Source of the DNA: Carnobacterium viridans | GTDB taxonomy: Bacteria; Bacillota; Bacilli; Lactobacillales; Carnobacteriaceae | DNA length: 64,000 bases | Direction: 5' to 3' | NCBI RefSeq assembly: GCF_900102725.1 | Contig: NZ_FNJW01000008.1 | Span: forward strand, 1,302,001-1,366,000 | In this document: one piece after another, positions 56,320 to 64,000 of the stretch | Layout of the letters: each line of letters starts with the position of its first letter | Position numbering within the stretch: position 1 is the first letter of the stretch | The notes under the pieces: generated by a model | Database searches by the model: none | The model's input: only the letters and a program-made list of their open reading frames with translations | What the model was told of the DNA's origin: nothing | Made by a program: the position numbers and the translations under genes

Positions 56320-56913
56320 GTGTTGGAAACAATTTTAAGTTTATACGTTACATTAATGTCAGTCATTTTTGCAGGTGTTGCCAATATGGCTTTTTGTAAA
56401 TACCCTACCTATCAACGTTTAAATATCCCCATGGATGCAGGTAGATTATTATCGGACGGAAAGCGATTATTTGGTCAAAACAAAACTTGGAAAGGCTTTA
56501 TTGGCATGATTCTTTTTGGCGGACTATCTCAGATCGTCTGGGGGCTCATTTTAAAAACTATTCCCTCTCTTGAATCGCTGAATCTATTCTACGACGTCTA
56601 TGCAAATTCTATACTAACGAATCTTTGGATTGGACTTTTATTAGGACTAGCCTATATTGTTTTTGAATTACCGAATAGTTTTATGAAACGCCGTTTAGAA
56701 ATCATGCCAGGCAAACCAGCAAATAATCAATGGAAATGGTTCTTTATTTTTATTGACCAAGCAGATTCATTGCTGGGGTGTGCTTTAATCGTAGCAGTTC
56801 TGGTTCCCATAAGTTGGACTCAATTTTTCGGCTTCATCATTTTAGGAGCAGGTACTCATATTGTGATCAATCAGTTATTGTATTTTTTAAAATTAAGAAA
56901 AAATCCATTCTAA
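56320..56913 (+). CDS. CDP-archaeol synthase-like (CarS/DUF46) cytidylyltransferase
   Basis: A 197-residue membrane protein with about five transmembrane segments. The motifs PMDAGRLLSDGKRLFGQNKTWKGFIG, cited as DGKRLFGQNKTWKGF, then NSFMKRRLEIMPG and FIFIDQADSLLG match the CarS/DUF46 family, which in archaea transfers CMP to unsaturated archaetidic acid and is related to CdsA. The GTG start follows AAGAGG. It is first in an operon that also encodes CDP-alcohol transferase, decarboxylase and UbiA homologues. I infer it activates a phosphatidic-acid-like lipid, perhaps one with isoprenoid chains. Confidence 0.8.
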   Translation: MLETILSLYVTLMSVIFAGVANMAFCKYPTYQRLNIPMDAGRLLSDGKRLFGQNKTWKGFIGMILFGGLSQIVWGLILKTIPSLESLNLFYDVYANSILTNLWIGLLLGLAYIVFELPNSFMKRRLEIMPGKPANNQWKWFFIFIDQADSLLGCALIVAVLVPISWTQFFGFIILGAGTHIVINQLLYFLKLRKNPF

Positions 56914-56945
56914 TTATTTTAGATGTACAAAGAGGTGTATAGACA

Positions 56946-59468
56946 ATCTATTGGACTTTAATAGAAACTGCAGAAAAAAATCCGCGGTATGGCGGTAAAA
57001 TAAACGCGTTAATCGATTTGTCTCAATTAGGCCTTCAGGTACCTAAAGGCTATTTCATTTCAGAAGATAAGCTCACTTCACTATGGATGGAAGCAATCCC
57101 AGAACTAGTAAGATTAGAAGCAACGGATCAACCTAGCCTACCAACTTATGAAACGATTGTTCAACGTCTGGACCAGCTGAGTTTTCCAATGAAATTATAT
57201 AGGGAAATAAATGATCTTATGCTTCCTAATAAAACGTATATCGTACGTAGCAGCGGTCTAATGGAAGACCACGCGTCTACTTCTTTTGCTGGACAGTATG
57301 ACACGATTGCAAATTGTACAACAATTGATGACATTATTGCTGCATTAAAACAGTGTATCGCCTCTCTTTTTAAGCCCGCTAGTTTAAATTATTGGCAGAC
57401 ACAACAATTGGATATTCAAAATCTAAGAATGTCTGTCATTATTCAAGAACAAATTTCAGCAGTTTCCAGTGGTATTGCGTTTACACTCAATCCTTTGACA
57501 AATAATGATCGCCAGTTAACGCTTGAAGTAGTAGAAGGCGCAGGAGAACAGCTTGTTAGCGGGTTGGTTACCCCTGAACAATTGACGATCGACTGGTTTT
57601 CAACGATTGGACCAATAAATGTCTCCCAAATTTTATCTTCAGACCAGTTGAAGCAACTTCAAGAACAATTGCTTTTGATTGCAACCTTTTATGGCTATCC
57701 TGTCGATGTAGAGTTTTGCTTCAGCAAAGATTCCTTATTTTTCTTGCAAGCTCGTCCGATTACAACCATCCGTCGAAAAATCAATGAAGGCAATTGGACC
57801 ACTACGAATTTTCGTGATGGCGGTGTCGCTGCGCAGCCTTGTCCAGGATTGATGTGGAGTTTATACCGCGAATCATGGCAAACAACGTTAGAAAAATTTC
57901 TGATTCAAAATAAGTTATACGATTCAACAAACATCAAGCAGCTTTCCATCAATCATTTTGCAAGACCTTATTGGAATATTGGTGTTGTCAAAGAAGCCAT
58001 GTCACGAATACCTGGCTACATTGAACGCGAATTTGACGATGAGCTTGGCGTTTATAAAAATTATCAAGGAGACGGCTACAAAAGCAAGCTGACAGTTAAG
58101 ACAATCAGCCATTTACTAACTGTGGCGACTCGCATCACTAAAACGACTCAGCAGCAGCGTCAAACGGCAGCACAGCAACACAAACAACTATTAGAGACTT
58201 ATCAATCAATCGATAAAAAAATCCAATCGCTGTCTTCCATAACAGATCAGCAAGACATTGAAATGTTATGGGAGTCCGTCATCAATGATGCTTATTTGCA
58301 AAGTGAACAGACTTATTTTTGGCAAGTCTATGTCAACACGGTACAGCTTTCCATGAAAAAAACGGCATTATTGAAAAAATTGCCATTAGAGACCTTTTTC
58401 CAGCTCATCTCAAAACTAGGAGAAGTCTCACATGTCCAACCGCTACGTGATTTGTATGAAATCGTTGAAATCATCGTTACAAACGAAAAATTTAAGCAGG
58501 AATGGCTGATAAACAGTCCAGTAGACATCAATACGCTGCTAACCAAACAGCCCCATCGTCTAGATGCGCAGCGGATTAAAGTTTTTCAAGCAACATTTGG
58601 CTATCATTCAAATCGTGAATTGAATTTATTGGTGCCAAGTTATAGCGAAGACCAACAGCTCGTTGTTGATCTGTTAAAAGACTACGTGGATCATCCAGAG
58701 AAACTCACGACTGCTAAACGTTCCTTCTCGCAAACGCTGACAGATGAGCAACTGGGGAAACTGATTGAACCCTATGTCACTAAATGGCAACGTACCAAAG
58801 TAATCAAGGATATCAAAATGCTACGCGAATTATTGTGGTGGCGTGAGGAGTTTAAAGATGTATCGACTCGTTTTTATCATTTGATTCGTCAAATCACTTT
58901 GAAATTAGGTGAAAGGTATTCCCAACTAGGGTATATTGATCAAACAGAAGACCTCTTCTATCTTGAAAAAGAAACGATACACTCTTTTATTACTAACCAA
59001 CTTTCTCAAGAAAGTCTTCAAAAATCCGTACAAGACAATCGTATGTACTGTCAGGCTTATCGCCACTTTGTTCCTCCAGGAGATTTAATGGAGACAAGTA
59101 TTTCCCCAGAGATGGAAAATCTTTTGGTAGATACTCCATCCAGTTTATCTGGAATCGGTGCTAACGATGGAATTGTTTCTGGAAAAGTAAGAATCCTTCT
59201 AGACCCTAAAGACATCCATCAGTTGCAAGCTGGCGAAATCTTGGTGACTCGTTTTACAGATACAGGTTGGAGTCACGCTTTTGGTTCCATTGAGGGTCTG
59301 ATTACAGAAACTGGCGGTGTTTTATGCCATGCCTCAATTGTTGCCAGAGAATTCGGGATTCCAACGATCGTCTGTACAGCACACGCTACTGAAAACTTAA
59401 AAACAGGTATGACCGTTACAATGAATGGAACAACGGGTGATATTACAATTCAAAAAGGTGGATGCTAA
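56946..59468 (+). CDS. PEP synthase/rifampicin phosphotransferase-like enzyme, start uncertain
   Basis: At least 816 residues. An ATP-grasp-like domain (YIVRSSGLMEDHAST; QARPIT), a long middle part, and a C-terminal phosphohistidine domain (TETGGVLCHASIVAREFGIP, the His 46 residues from the end) give the domain order of rifampicin phosphotransferase and PEP synthase. The GGK nucleotide motif (RYGGKINALIDL) lies upstream of the first usual start, TTG 57018, which has no ribosome binding site. GAGGTG at 56932-56937 is correctly spaced from an ATC at 56946, so a rare start codon or a frameshift is likely. It follows the CarS-like gene by 32 bp. Confidence 0.75.
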   Translation: MYWTLIETAEKNPRYGGKINALIDLSQLGLQVPKGYFISEDKLTSLWMEAIPELVRLEATDQPSLPTYETIVQRLDQLSFPMKLYREINDLMLPNKTYIVRSSGLMEDHASTSFAGQYDTIANCTTIDDIIAALKQCIASLFKPASLNYWQTQQLDIQNLRMSVIIQEQISAVSSGIAFTLNPLTNNDRQLTLEVVEGAGEQLVSGLVTPEQLTIDWFSTIGPINVSQILSSDQLKQLQEQLLLIATFYGYPVDVEFCFSKDSLFFLQARPITTIRRKINEGNWTTTNFRDGGVAAQPCPGLMWSLYRESWQTTLEKFLIQNKLYDSTNIKQLSINHFARPYWNIGVVKEAMSRIPGYIEREFDDELGVYKNYQGDGYKSKLTVKTISHLLTVATRITKTTQQQRQTAAQQHKQLLETYQSIDKKIQSLSSITDQQDIEMLWESVINDAYLQSEQTYFWQVYVNTVQLSMKKTALLKKLPLETFFQLISKLGEVSHVQPLRDLYEIVEIIVTNEKFKQEWLINSPVDINTLLTKQPHRLDAQRIKVFQATFGYHSNRELNLLVPSYSEDQQLVVDLLKDYVDHPEKLTTAKRSFSQTLTDEQLGKLIEPYVTKWQRTKVIKDIKMLRELLWWREEFKDVSTRFYHLIRQITLKLGERYSQLGYIDQTEDLFYLEKETIHSFITNQLSQESLQKSVQDNRMYCQAYRHFVPPGDLMETSISPEMENLLVDTPSSLSGIGANDGIVSGKVRILLDPKDIHQLQAGEILVTRFTDTGWSHAFGSIEGLITETGGVLCHASIVAREFGIPTIVCTAHATENLKTGMTVTMNGTTGDITIQKGGC

Positions 59469-59470
59469 AA

Positions 59471-60079
59471 ATGTTTATTGGAGAATATGGAAAGTTTGTC
59501 TATTTAACCTATTTTGGGACAGCCCTGTCGTTAGTAGCGATGCATTTTATCATTCAAGGTGAAATGATCTGGGCGATGAGCTGCTTTATTGTGAGCGGAC
59601 TTTGTGATTTATTTGATGGCATGGTTGCGCGTTCTTTTGAAAGAACAAAAGCGCAAGAACAATTTGGTGTGGAGATCGATACCCTTTGCGATATGATCAG
59701 TTTTGCGGCATTGCCCGCAGTTTTATTGATCGCACAAGGCCGGTTTCCTTTAATGAACATTTTTTTAGCTATTATTTATGTCATCGCTGCAGTTACAAGA
59801 CTGGCTTATTTCAATCGTGAAACGAAAGAAAATTTAGCAGAAAGAGCTACTTATTTCCGGGGAGTTCCGGTTACCTATGGTGCACTTGTTTTTCCGGTCG
59901 GTTATTTGGTAAGTGAATGGTTAATAAGTGGCAGTTTTCAATCTGTTCTTCTACTGCTTGCTCCTATAATGGCTTTTCTATTCATCTGGGACATTAAGAT
60001 TCCTAAACCCAATCGTGTAATGTACCTCTTTTTCCTAGGATTAGCGCTTGTAACGTTGTTCGGATTATGGAGATTGTAG
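59471..60079 (+). CDS. CDP-alcohol phosphatidyltransferase, PssA-like
   Basis: About 202 residues, several transmembrane helices. The full CDP-alcohol motif D-G-x2-A-R-x8-G-x3-D-x3-D is present (FDGMVAR, then GVEIDTLCD). The position beside a Psd-like gene suggests serine as acceptor, giving a phosphatidylserine-like lipid, the bacterial counterpart of archaetidylserine synthase. ATG 59471 is chosen because AGGTGG (59456-59461) directly abuts an earlier in-frame ATG at 59462. Confidence 0.82.
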   Translation: MFIGEYGKFVYLTYFGTALSLVAMHFIIQGEMIWAMSCFIVSGLCDLFDGMVARSFERTKAQEQFGVEIDTLCDMISFAALPAVLLIAQGRFPLMNIFLAIIYVIAAVTRLAYFNRETKENLAERATYFRGVPVTYGALVFPVGYLVSEWLISGSFQSVLLLLAPIMAFLFIWDIKIPKPNRVMYLFFLGLALVTLFGLWRL

Positions 60080-60080
60080 T

Positions 60081-60947
60081 ATGCCAAAAGTCTATCAACG
60101 TGAAACGAAATCGATTACTGAACCTAAGGAATATCAAGCAGCATGGTTAAAACGATTGTATTTAACAAAGTGGGGAAACATTTTGCTTTTCGTAGTCACT
60201 TCCCCATTGTTTTCAATCATGTGGACAGCTATTGACCATACCCGATTTTCTAAAAATAAAGTTGCTCAGTTCACCAAAGAGTACGGTATCAACATAAACG
60301 ATTACGAGTCTGCAAACTATAGATCTTTTGCAGCATTCTTTATCCGAAAATTAAAAGCGGCTAACATTCACGTAAGTCCGTCTAATCGCGTTTGCGCTGT
60401 TGCGCAAGCGAAACTATTAACTGTTCCCATTCATAGTGATCAGACCTTTACCGTCAAAGGACAGAACTATCGTTTAGAAGATATCCTTCAAGACCGTTCT
60501 TCAGCTGATTATTACGAGGGTGGCACACTATTTATTTACCGATTAGCAGTCGATGATTACCATCGTTATCTGGCTAGTGAAACAGGCTCGGTTATTCATC
60601 GTCGCAAAATCCACGGAAAATTACATACAGTCAGAGAAATCGCCCAACAACACTTTCAATTATTCAAAGAAAATAAAAGAGAATATTGTCTACTTGAAAC
60701 AAAGAATTTAGGGATGATCATGCAGATGGAAGTTGGAGCGCTTTTGGTTGGAAAGATTTATAATCAACCATTCGATAGTTATCAGCGAGGTAAAGAAAAA
60801 GGCTGGTTTAGCCTAGGTGGGTCCACTATACTGGTGGCTTATCCAAAGGGAACAGTAACCGTTGATCAAGATATTGATTATTATTCTAATCTAAATATAG
60901 AAACTCAAGTCAACATAGGGGAAGGAATTGGTCTGAAAACATGCTAA
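60081..60947 (+). CDS. Divergent phosphatidylserine decarboxylase-like protein
   Basis: A 288-residue Psd homologue. The self-cleavage GGST (SLGGSTILV), which yields the pyruvoyl cofactor, is intact near residue 253. Two residues of the processing triad appear changed: the usual PADG Asp is PSNR (VSPSNRV), and the second His of YHRxH is replaced (DDYHRYLAS). An N-terminal hydrophobic helix (LLFVVTSPLFSIMW) anchors it. It starts two bases after the PssA-like gene and overlaps UbiA by seven. It may decarboxylate an unusual lipid, or process differently, or have lost activity. Confidence 0.75.
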   Translation: MPKVYQRETKSITEPKEYQAAWLKRLYLTKWGNILLFVVTSPLFSIMWTAIDHTRFSKNKVAQFTKEYGININDYESANYRSFAAFFIRKLKAANIHVSPSNRVCAVAQAKLLTVPIHSDQTFTVKGQNYRLEDILQDRSSADYYEGGTLFIYRLAVDDYHRYLASETGSVIHRRKIHGKLHTVREIAQQHFQLFKENKREYCLLETKNLGMIMQMEVGALLVGKIYNQPFDSYQRGKEKGWFSLGGSTILVAYPKGTVTVDQDIDYYSNLNIETQVNIGEGIGLKTC

Positions 60948-61846
60948 AGAGATTATTAACTTACTATAAAGAAATGTACCCACTGATTCCGCGATTCCTA
61001 TTAGCAATCATCTACTTTTTTGAAATCTACTTTATCTTACTCCTCAACGTAGGAAAGTCAGATTTTTCAATAGGAATACAAGAATGGACCGGAGTTTGGA
61101 CAATATTCACATTTTTGATGGCGCTTAGGATCGCAGATGATTTTAAAGACTACGAACACGATCAACGACTATTTCCTGATCGAGCACTGCCTTCTGGTAG
61201 AGTTAAGAAACGTGATTTAGCTATTGCTTTAGCTGTCATGGTCACGATCACTGTTGTGCTCAATGTCATCTTTATGAATAATATAGGCTGGTTTCTCTTT
61301 TTATTCATCTATGGAACCTTGATGTCGCTGTGGTTTTTCAGCAAAGCTAAAATTCAAAAATCATTACCTTTAGCACTTGTTACCCATAATCCTGTGATGA
61401 TGGTCATGAATATCTATATCATCACATTCGTTTGTTACAAATATCAATTGCCATTGCTATCCCTACCTACTGTTTTGCTGGCATTTACGATGTATTTCCC
61501 AAGCTTGATATGGGAAATCAGCCGTAAAATAAGAGCACCCAAAGACGAGACAGAATATGTGACATATTCCCAACTCTTCACTTATCAAAAAGCCACACGT
61601 TTCGTTCAAGTGCTGACGATTATTGATATTTTAACGAATTTTATTTTATTATGGAATATTTCAAAAATCGGCGTCGTTGTTCTATTGGCAAATGTCATCT
61701 GGATGACGATTCAATTTCAACAATTCATTCATGATCCGACACGTTTCAGTATCAAAAATCGAGTAGAACGTTATACCTACATTACGGAAACAACGATGGT
61801 TCTTTCGGTTGCCGCACATCTATTGTTACAGGGGTTTGTCCGATGA
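60941..61846 (+). CDS. UbiA-family prenyltransferase
   Basis: A 301-residue membrane protein with about eight hydrophobic helices. The first Asp-rich motif is RIADDFKDYEHD and is followed by DRALPSGRV; the second is in ISRKIRAPKDETEY. This is the UbiA layout for Mg-dependent transfer of a polyprenyl chain. In archaea a UbiA enzyme makes digeranylgeranylglyceryl phosphate, the substrate chain leading to CarS; menaquinone or haem synthesis genes are absent here. It overlaps psd by seven and the next gene by four bases. Confidence 0.82.
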   Translation: MLKRLLTYYKEMYPLIPRFLLAIIYFFEIYFILLLNVGKSDFSIGIQEWTGVWTIFTFLMALRIADDFKDYEHDQRLFPDRALPSGRVKKRDLAIALAVMVTITVVLNVIFMNNIGWFLFLFIYGTLMSLWFFSKAKIQKSLPLALVTHNPVMMVMNIYIITFVCYKYQLPLLSLPTVLLAFTMYFPSLIWEISRKIRAPKDETEYVTYSQLFTYQKATRFVQVLTIIDILTNFILLWNISKIGVVVLLANVIWMTIQFQQFIHDPTRFSIKNRVERYTYITETTMVLSVAAHLLLQGFVR

Positions 61847-64000
61847 AACAACTCACTAACTTTCACCGTCGATCAGTAGGTTCAAAAGCAGCTAATTTGC
61901 ATCTCATGAAAGAGCAGGGTCTCGTTGTTCCTCCTTTTTCCGTTTTTTCATTTGATCTTTTTGATCAAACAGATGTACTTACTTTCTTGCAGGAACAGCA
62001 AGAAGCATACCATACAGGAAACGATACATTGAATGCATTAAGTCAACGATTACAACAGGAACTTAAGGCGAAATTTTTGCAAGAAGATTTTACAGCTATC
62101 CATGATTTTAGCAGACACGCATCTGGCAAGCATACCTACTCTGTGCGATCTTCAGCAAACGTTGAAGATGATGCCTCTGCCTCATTTGCTGGACAATTTT
62201 CTACGCGTTTGTTTGTTGAAGTAGATGACTTAGTTGAGGCTGTAGAGGAAACTCTTTTGTCGTTGTACCAGCCCTCTGCATTGAGTTACTACTTTGAAAA
62301 TGGCATCTCGTTAGAAGCAGTTAAATTATACGTCATTCTTCAAGACATGATTTCAGGAGATTTATCTGGGGTCTATTTTACCGCGAATCCTCAAGGGTTA
62401 TTGAACGAACAGTTAATTGTTGTCGGCGTTGGCGTTGGTAGCGGGATCGTTGAAGATAAAGTAGATACAACGATGGTTACGATCCATTCGGATGATCAAT
62501 TGTCTTACTTTGAAACTTCTGGTACTTCTCCAATCTTAACAGAAAAACAACAAGTCGAGTTAGAAGATATGGCGGAGAAAGTAACGGACATCTTTGGTCC
62601 GCGAATGGATATTGAATTTACTTTTTTGAATGACCAACTGTACGTTTTACAGGCACGTCCTATTACAAAATTGCCTGCAGAACCGGTCACCATTTTAGAT
62701 AATAGCAATATCGTGGAAAGTTATCCCGGAACAACGACTCCTTTGACATTCAGTTTCATTCAAGAAGCTTATGGGAGTATTTTTAGAGGTTTGGCCAAGC
62801 GTATGCTGAAAAATGATACACAGACACTTCAATCATTTGAGCCTACTTTTCAAAATATGATTGCTCAAGTAAACAGCCGTGTATACTATCAAATCAATAA
62901 TTGGTACAAATTACTTCATCTTCTGCCCTTTTCTAAGCAGATCATCCCTATTTGGCAAGATATGTTAGGTGTTCAAGCCACCGATATCTCTGCAATTACA
63001 GTAAAAATCAGTCGCTCAACTCGACTGAAAATCATGGGACGCATCATTAAGAGTTTCATCCAAGCGCCTCGTTCAATGAAACAACTCGATTCGGATTTTG
63101 AAGCGATTTCTGAACATTTCAATCAAACGTATACGCGAGAGGCTTCATTTGAAGAACTTCATCAATTATTTGAGCAGATCAAACGACAAGTATTGGAACA
63201 ATGGGATGTCACTTTGATCAATGATCTCTATGCGTTTGTTTATACTGGGCTGTTAAAAAAAGTCTGTCCGCCTGAAGAAGTTCAAGAGGCAATAGCCGGG
63301 ATAGAACAAATTGAAAGTATGAAACCAGTGTTTGAACTGAATAAAATCATTTATGCCATTCAGGAAGAACAACATAGCGACTATCGAAAAATAATTGAAA
63401 GCATTTCTTCGGAACTTGCAGCTGATTTTATTGAGACAGATTTGCATCCAATCACACAAGATATCCGACAGTTCATTCAACAATTTGGAGATCGAGCTCC
63501 AGAAGAATTAAAATTAGAGACGGCAACCTTTCGTAGTCATCCTTTTTCATTAATTCAACTGATCCAACAGCAATTGGAATTGCCGCAAACAGCTATACGT
63601 ACTGACTCTAAAGCAACGATAACAAACAAATCACGAAGTCCATTGGTGAATGGGCTGAAAAAACGCGCTATGACAGGGATCAAATACAGAGAAAGTTCTC
63701 GCTTGAATCGTACGCGCATTTATGGAATGATGCGACTCATCTTTATCACTATGGGCGAGCAGTTGGTAAAAGAAAATCGTCTTGAGCAATCAGAAGATGT
63801 ATTTTATTTAACGATGGCTGAATTATTCGATTTGGCTAGCCATAGAGATCTTTCAAATATGCAAACAGAGATACAAAAACGGAAACATAAACGGTCTGTA
63901 GATCAGAAATTACCTGCATTCAGCCGGCTGATCTATGCTGGAAGTATTTTCGAAAAATATCCACAAACGATCAATCAGCAGCAGATCGTCTCGACCAGCC
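61843..64000 (+). CDS. Second PEP synthase/rifampicin phosphotransferase-like enzyme, cut by window edge
   Basis: 719 complete codons are present and the frame is open at the edge. N-terminal RRSVGSKAANLHLM (the Lys of the GSK/GGK motif) and YSVRSSANVEDDASAS with ATP-binding Arg, then VLQARPIT closing the ATP-grasp domain; the middle region follows, and the C-terminal phosphohistidine domain would lie beyond 64000. The ATG overlaps the UbiA stop (ATGA). It is about as long as, but clearly different from, the first such enzyme in the operon. Substrate unknown; transfer of the beta-phosphate of ATP to a small or lipid-linked alcohol is plausible. Confidence 0.85.
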   Translation, partial: MKQLTNFHRRSVGSKAANLHLMKEQGLVVPPFSVFSFDLFDQTDVLTFLQEQQEAYHTGNDTLNALSQRLQQELKAKFLQEDFTAIHDFSRHASGKHTYSVRSSANVEDDASASFAGQFSTRLFVEVDDLVEAVEETLLSLYQPSALSYYFENGISLEAVKLYVILQDMISGDLSGVYFTANPQGLLNEQLIVVGVGVGSGIVEDKVDTTMVTIHSDDQLSYFETSGTSPILTEKQQVELEDMAEKVTDIFGPRMDIEFTFLNDQLYVLQARPITKLPAEPVTILDNSNIVESYPGTTTPLTFSFIQEAYGSIFRGLAKRMLKNDTQTLQSFEPTFQNMIAQVNSRVYYQINNWYKLLHLLPFSKQIIPIWQDMLGVQATDISAITVKISRSTRLKIMGRIIKSFIQAPRSMKQLDSDFEAISEHFNQTYTREASFEELHQLFEQIKRQVLEQWDVTLINDLYAFVYTGLLKKVCPPEEVQEAIAGIEQIESMKPVFELNKIIYAIQEEQHSDYRKIIESISSELAADFIETDLHPITQDIRQFIQQFGDRAPEELKLETATFRSHPFSLIQLIQQQLELPQTAIRTDSKATITNKSRSPLVNGLKKRAMTGIKYRESSRLNRTRIYGMMRLIFITMGEQLVKENRLEQSEDVFYLTMAELFDLASHRDLSNMQTEIQKRKHKRSVDQKLPAFSRLIYAGSIFEKYPQTINQQQIVSTS

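Follow-up and report, generated by a model that had tools for sequence, protein, structure and literature searches.

A recurrent operon with a CarS-subfamily protein and a UbiA-superfamily prenyltransferase: a candidate pathway for an undescribed bacterial phospholipid

The 64,000-nucleotide stretch of the Carnobacterium viridans genome analysed here (contig NZ_FNJW01000008.1, positions 1,302,001 to 1,366,000; 'the window' throughout) ends in a run of six genes, carS, pps1, pss, psd, ubiA and pps2, which form one tight operon that continues past the window into a seventh gene, gnat. Our preferred reading, held with about even confidence, is that this is a biosynthetic operon for an undescribed phospholipid, which would probably reside in the membrane. 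The half of the pathway that builds the headgroup is well supported; that the core combines an isoprenoid with an acyl chain is a reasoned guess. In its most specific form the proposal is tentative: oral streptococci and gut Clostridia may make a hybrid phospholipid with one isoprenoid chain (from UbiA) and one fatty-acyl chain (from the GNAT-fold protein and an acyl-CoA ligase), using a soluble phospho-histidine dikinase as lipid kinase in some lineages and an archaeal-type CarS, and ending in an ethanolamine lipid. A sequence-only reading of the window had described six closely packed genes of these families; all of the open reading frames (ORFs) lie at or near the places it gave, with Pfam or NCBIfam support.

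Relatives of the operon were collected by scanning genome contigs with the UbiA protein. This found 84; we retained the best 80 as loci and scored them with profiles built from those loci. The set overlaps with the sample of 295 genomes of the order described below (L149 is L030 and L157 is L029). Trees, alignments and structure inputs use chosen representatives and not every locus. The titles of the loci include Desemzia, Enterococcus, Abiotrophia, Fundicoccus and Streptococcus sanguinis, gordonii, cristatus, sinensis and moroccensis, as well as many Lachnospiraceae, Ruminococcus and other Clostridia, mostly as metagenome-assembled genomes; the Aerococcaceae are also represented. The gene set recurs across dozens of other genomes with its order mostly kept, and this recurrence exceeds chance. 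One contig with a PPS1-type operon (L099) is labelled Candidatus Saccharibacteria and is possibly a mis-binned member of the Clostridia.

Within the 295 genomes of the order, UbiA matches above 260 bits, CarS matches above 43 bits and intact GNAT matches above 350 bits select an identical set of 12 genomes, with thresholds that were chosen once the gaps in the scores were visible. For UbiA, the NCBIfam model NF010118 has matches in 18 genomes, 12 of them strong (264-567 bits) and six below 20 bits. For CarS, PF01864 has matches in 119 genomes; 80 exceed the cut-off of 22 bits and 12 reach 43 bits or more, the next being at 32.9; the matches below 43 bits lie mostly in frames of 260-300 aa and are taken for CdsA from length alone. 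The GNAT profile matches 15 genomes: 12 score 355-468 bits, G264 has a broken copy and two score below 20 bits. The co-occurrence elsewhere, which the sequence-only reading proposed to look for in Carnobacteriaceae, Listeria and Enterococcus, holds in these 12 genomes and in the Enterococcus and Desemzia loci, and Listeria appears in no title of the 80 loci. With ubiA carried by three of the six genomes of the window's genus and the operon by 12 of 295 in the order, it is accessory and patchy. A cassette common on phages or plasmids is ruled out by the absence of any UbiA match at E 1e-5 in 72,556 plasmid and 50,697 phage records. We found no description of the operon in the literature searched, most subscription journals lying outside it. 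A remnant occurs in G264, of the same order (L154, 8349-10108), with the 3' part of pps2 and gnat in two frames (381 and 53 bits); an integrase-like ORF lies upstream of it.

Gene content across the 80 loci is nested. Whereas ubiA, as the query, is present in all 80, pps2 is found in 78, gnat in 71, carS in 69, pss and psd in 56 each and an acyl-CoA ligase gene in 18. Both pps2 misses and eight of the nine gnat misses are at contig ends. Eight loci that have upstream sequence carry ubiA-pps2-gnat alone (six of them with the acyl-CoA ligase); other loci add a kinase gene and carS, and still others add pss and psd. The last two always accompany carS except in L095 and L097, both of which start at a contig edge; L076 starts inside ubiA. 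Where the kinase is of the diacylglycerol kinase (DAGK) family, psd is missing from 15 of 42 loci, and it is present in all 29 loci with PPS1. Such nesting is as expected of a linear pathway that proceeds from a core lipid through phosphorylation, CDP activation and serine addition to decarboxylation. Variants in order are a pps2 gene upstream (L082), a gap of 3.3 kb between ubiA and pps2 (L054) and a ligase gene after gnat (L099). Of the ORF clusters present in at least 10 loci, none besides DAGK and the acyl-CoA ligase adds to the genes next to the operon; ABC-transporter ATPases turn up in 17 loci, but at scattered positions.

The kinase position beside carS is informative. The 69 carS loci of the 80-locus set have either PPS1 (27) or DAGK (42); none has both and none has neither. 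The pps1 gene stands after carS and the DAGK_prokar gene before it (PF01219 at 77.3 and 70.9 bits in two examples). Beyond this set, pps1 is present in the window operon and in L146 and L147. On a UbiA tree (85 rows, with long-branch warnings, L076 and L106 having been dropped because they are cut in ubiA) the kinase states change six times, compared with a shuffled mean of 34.9; taken singly, DAGK changes four times, PPS1 three and the absence of both five. That one enzyme family replaces another at this position is good evidence that both serve the same step, lipid-alcohol phosphorylation. PPS1 is best read as a putative dikinase-type lipid-alcohol phosphotransferase that replaces diacylglycerol kinase. 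The sequence-only reading had left two enzymes resembling phosphoenolpyruvate (PEP) synthase unexplained: the first now has a likely role as kinase, the second still has none.

Both PPS proteins match PPDK_N (160.5 and 138.4 bits; Pfam cut-off 27), and the top PDB matches of their profiles are the 5hv1-3/5fbs group (best E 1.4e-109 for PPS1 and 2.7e-81 for PPS2). We take 5hv1-5hv3 and 5fbs-5fbu to be rifampin phosphotransferase (Rph), the label in the PDB file being PEP synthase. Of the PEP-synthase domains, PPS1 and complete PPS2 orthologues have only PPDK_N and PEP-utilizers, and the C-terminal PEP/pyruvate barrel was not found; true PEP synthases are ruled out for this reason. The NCBIfam model NF004882 and the PDB entries listed above bear the name phosphoenolpyruvate synthase, yet the PPS2 orthologues have no barrel. 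True Rph resistance enzymes are also ruled out, as PPS1 (241.8 bits) and the window-cut PPS2 (122.3 bits) fall far below the cut-off of 999 of the NCBIfam Rph model NF041857. The histidine motif is found in 28 of 29 PPS1 loci and RSSxxxED in 27, both being invariant in a 10-row alignment (A4). The motif histidine is invariant in the alignments of PPS1 (10 rows) and of PPS2 (25 rows); strict PPS2 patterns fit 51 and 50 of 79 stretches. In a quick tree of 22 chosen rows, rooted at the midpoint, PPS1 and PPS2 form separate clades. PPS2 is present in every uncut locus, and the window genome has no further PPDK_N match at E 0.001.

The remaining headgroup enzymes fall into recognizable families. 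CarS matches PF01864 at 65.1 bits (E 1e-17, cut-off 22) and misses the cut-off of the equivalog model NF003114 (74.3 against 148 bits); it is therefore CarS-like rather than a shown archaeal equivalog. A profile of the family finds Aeropyrum pernix CarS (5guf) at E 5.9e-9, with no CdsA among four matches to E 1, and its KRR...D(Q/R)xD region, found in 68 of 69 loci, aligns with that of the A. pernix protein. The protein belongs to the CarS subfamily. Pss matches the CDP-alcohol phosphatidyltransferase family PF01066 (CDP-OH_P_transf, 52.2 bits, cut-off 22) and misses the NCBIfam cut-offs for both archaetidylserine synthase (81.3 against 240) and pssA TIGR00473 (70.5 against 107). Psd matches PF02666 (PS_Dcarbxylase, 140.6 bits, cut-off 22) and misses the equivalog NF001941 (217.8 against 371). 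What we take to be the CDP-alcohol motif of Pss, DGxxA...GxxxDxxxD, and the GGST-type motif of Psd, G(G/A)S(S/T), presumably the pyruvoyl site, are each conserved in 55 of the 56 loci. The two loci that diverge most (L144, 2606-4932; L145, 4046-4864) have a gene for BacA, of the undecaprenyl-diphosphatase family, upstream of carS, scored in L144 only; in L144 an ORF resembling glycosyltransferases and a weak match to an acyltransferase separate BacA from carS.

UbiA falls below the Pfam cut-off (25.9 against 34.2 bits) and above that of NF010118 (502.8 against 443). Its only PDB profile match below E 0.01 is DGGGP synthase (6m31), and the corresponding sequence match (0.002) is weak and lies in the region of the first motif. 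An AlphaFold2 model of the Desemzia orthologue (pLDDT 83.7, weak at 200-207) is nearest to the same protein (6m31, Z 18.4, 3.9 A over 271 residues; 7bpu, Z 18.0), the next-best proteins being UBIAD1 and ApUbiA at Z 15.4. The first aspartate motif, RxAD(D/E)xKDxExD, is present in 80 of 80 loci and a second-half motif, ExxRKIxAPxDExxYxTYS, in 78. In the DGGGP synthase MjDGGGPS the second aspartate motif (motif 3) consists of D183, D187 and D190 (PMC9385802). The window genome has two polyprenyl synthase matches, so that prenyl diphosphates are probably available. A search for GGGP synthase (PcrB family) in 12 operon genomes, which all belong to the window's order and include no Clostridia, found none; there is one partial match in G004, one of three operon-free congeners, and the family is over cut-off in five of 14 control genomes.

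The product of the seventh gene has no Pfam or NCBIfam family match, and a PDB profile search found a designed protein only (E 0.5). Its model (pLDDT 92.1) is a tandem GNAT fold over the whole chain, with structural matches to 5kf2 (Z 20.1, 4.0 A, 285 residues) and 7q3a (Z 19.5, 4.2 A, 293 residues). A GxG loop, which we take to have its usual meaning in GNAT proteins, is found in 66 of 71. FemX and MprF, which use aminoacyl-tRNA, are also near in Foldseek, and acyl-CoA and aminoacyl-tRNA are therefore both possible donors; the occurrence of an acyl-CoA ligase (PF00501) in 18 of the 80 loci favours an acyl donor. Among 398 genomes sampled from the phylum, only the window's own has a match at orthologue level (457 bits). 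Counting this one, 68 of these genomes have matches to the family; in the other 67 they are distant relatives at 106 bits or less, mostly in frames of 350-460 aa; the contexts of four of them (L150-L153) have no common neighbours by eye.

The pathway that we propose has two halves. In the first, a small acceptor bearing hydroxyl groups, or amino and hydroxyl groups, would receive an isoprenoid chain from UbiA and a fatty-acyl chain from the GNAT-fold protein (in loci that have the acyl-CoA ligase, this enzyme would activate the acyl chain), and PPS2 might supply an ATP-driven phosphotransfer needed for assembly; the core product would be a lipid alcohol. In the second, PPS1 would phosphorylate this alcohol by the dikinase chemistry of Rph (ATP to AMP through phospho-histidine), a job that the small membrane kinase of the DAGK family would do in many gut relatives. 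CarS would convert the lipid phosphate to a CDP-lipid, the Pss-type enzyme would exchange CMP for serine and Psd would decarboxylate the result to an ethanolamine headgroup. We infer every substrate, step direction and product in this scheme from the observed families, motifs, gene order, co-occurrence, kinase pattern and folds. The earlier suggestion of a pathway for an unusual, possibly isoprenoid phospholipid survives in the single operon and in the module leading from lipid phosphate through CDP-lipid and serine to ethanolamine, and does not survive in its match to the archaeal pathway.

Clearly, a number of points weigh against this proposal. The substrates given for the operon enzymes are predicted, and PPS2 has no assigned step. 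The second half of the UbiA alignment (A2) has no conserved DxxxD, so that the second aspartate motif of DGGGP synthase is absent, as judged by position along the chain and not by residue-level structural alignment; the donor may thus not be an ordinary prenyl diphosphate. Three loci outside the main set (L144, L145 and L148) carry carS-pss-psd-ubiA-pps2-gnat but have no PPS1 and no additional DAGK close by, which breaks, as a universal rule, the statement that every carS has PPS1 or DAGK. Their genomes have no PPS1-profile match above 63 bits beyond the operon PPS2 and a single DAGK gene each, as in all 16 genomes tested, and a housekeeping kinase or another enzyme would therefore have to serve. 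Since there are six changes on the tree and many near-copy rows, the exclusivity of the two kinases represents a handful of events and not 69. A strict pattern for what we take to be the DAGK motif fits 33 of 42 loci, and that for the acyl-CoA ligase 16 of 18. Finally, gnat is truly absent from L091, where 7 kb of downstream sequence is present.

The alternative that survives best, and which we regard as unlikely, is a prenylated and acylated metabolite that does not reside in the membrane: UbiA would act on an aromatic compound or amine, PPS2 would be an ATP-driven coupling enzyme in the manner of the prodigiosin ligases PigC and RedH, and phosphoethanolamine would be a tailoring group. Both PPS proteins have these two ligases among their better-scoring NCBIfam models, at scores far below the cut-offs of 1300 and 1350 (251.1 and 224.5 for PPS1, 123.4 and 117.5 for the window-cut PPS2). 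The eight loci without headgroup genes, which hold ubiA-pps2-gnat with or without the ligase, and the patchy spread of the operon also fit such a product. However, CarS, DAGK and Psd are membrane-lipid enzymes, and the recurrent operon-adjacent extras consist of DAGK and the ligase only.

Rather less probable is the synthesis of ordinary diacyl phosphatidylethanolamine from phosphatidic acid by carS, pss, psd and the kinase, with ubiA-pps2-gnat as a separate neighbour. We take DAGK, Pss and Psd to be the usual enzymes for this lipid, and the window genome has just two other CDP-alcohol transferase matches. Against this, the operon has a CarS-subfamily protein instead of CdsA, and carS, ubiA and gnat select the same 12 genomes. 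Streptococcus sanguinis ATCC 10556 carries the operon (L033), yet the lipidome paper that includes this strain reports phosphatidylethanolamines monitored at very low levels only in its oral microbes generally (PMC11052126). The word 'isoprenoid' is absent from this paper, whose method may or may not have been able to see such a lipid.

A true archaeal-type diether lipid (archaetidylethanolamine) is very unlikely. CarS and UbiA are nearest to archaeal CarS and DGGGP synthase, and the top score of Pss, although under its cut-off, is for archaetidylserine synthase. The earlier matching of four lipid families to archaeal steps holds to this extent and no further: we reject the standard archaeal diether pathway on the lack of GGGP synthase in the 12 genomes of the order that were tested, the second aspartate motif is missing from UbiA, and the additional acyltransferase-fold gene and ligase would be left unexplained. 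We conclude that the pathway is probably not the archaeal one. Sphingolipid-type synthesis, prompted by the acyl-CoA ligase and acyltransferase, was considered; the gene for serine palmitoyltransferase was not searched for.

The layout of the operon is given in the table below. From pps1 onward the spacing between genes is -7, +1, -7, -4 and -20 bases. The part within the window has a G+C content of 38.5% compared with 35.7% for the whole window. A further gene beyond position 64,000, where the sequence-only reading suggested looking, is present in the downstream sequence of the same genome (L003); there pps2 is completed and overlaps gnat, and the next large ORFs are on the opposite strand.

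Table. Genes of the operon, in order (positions are those of the window; gnat and the end of pps2 lie past its edge).
Gene	Coordinates	Strand	Product and features
carS	56320..56913	+	CarS-subfamily CTP transferase (CDP-lipid synthase), 197 aa, GTG start; PF01864
pps1	56946..59468	+	Rph/PEP-synthase-like phosphotransferase; ATP-grasp and swivelling His domain; PPDK_N and PEP-utilizers
pss	59462..60079	+	CDP-alcohol phosphatidyltransferase, probably serine type, 205 aa; PF01066
psd	60081..60947	+	Phosphatidylserine-decarboxylase family, 288 aa, GGST motif at residue 246; PF02666
ubiA	60941..61846	+	UbiA-superfamily membrane prenyltransferase, 301 aa; NF010118/PRK13592
pps2	61843..64000 (window edge)	+	Second Rph/PEP-synthase-like phosphotransferase; full gene ends 64344, 833 aa
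gnat (gene 7)	64325-65416		Tandem GNAT fold, 363 aa; overlaps pps2

The start of pps1 requires comment. The ORF finder places it at TTG 57018 (816 aa); a start at ATC 56946 would give 840 aa. The frame contains no ATG, GTG or TTG ahead of TTG 57018 and is open back to a TAG stop at 56940. A start at 57018 is unlikely because a GGK motif conserved in the PPS1 family is encoded upstream of it, in frame. A Shine-Dalgarno-like AGAGGTG lies 8 bases 5' of ATC 56946. The same arrangement is found in L155, L156 (where the stop is TAA) and L029, giving four genomes from two related genera, and the Enterococcus orthologue has an ATG where the stop at 56940 sits in the window operon. This suggests that pps1 starts at ATC 56946, a putative non-standard start codon.

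If the proposed reading is correct, a lipid class undescribed in the literature searched is made by gut bacteria and by genetically tractable bacteria of the mouth. An Rph-like enzyme would gain a natural role as lipid kinase and some bacterial CarS proteins would be explained. Together with genomes of the FCB group and engineered Escherichia coli, these bacteria would provide a natural system for testing chemistry that mixes archaeal and bacterial lipids.

The closest known system is the archaeal polar ether-lipid pathway, which the operon resembles in the order of the headgroup steps, in the CarS subfamily and in a UbiA fold nearest to DGGGP synthase. It differs in having no GGGP synthase in the 12 genomes, in ExxRKIxAPxDE in place of the second aspartate motif, in a dedicated kinase, PPS1 or DAGK, in every one of the 69 carS loci within the 80-locus set (absent in three others), and in its GNAT-fold protein and acyl-CoA ligase; the archaeal pathway is not known to use an acyltransferase or an acyl-CoA ligase. 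Bacteria of the FCB group also have archaeal-type lipid enzymes: for Candidatus Cloacimonetes, PMC7852524 describes archaeal lipid genes with GGGP and DGGGP synthases and CarS not detected, whereas the operon genomes have CarS and the 12 tested gave no GGGP synthase match. The operon UbiA is a member, by score, of NF010118 (PRK13592), a model named 'prenyltransferase' that specifies no function further. With Rph, the PPS proteins share ATP-grasp and histidine end domains that align, the histidine motif and the lack of a detectable barrel; they differ in scoring far under the Rph cut-off, in lying in a lipid operon and, for PPS1, in being swapped for DAGK in relatives.

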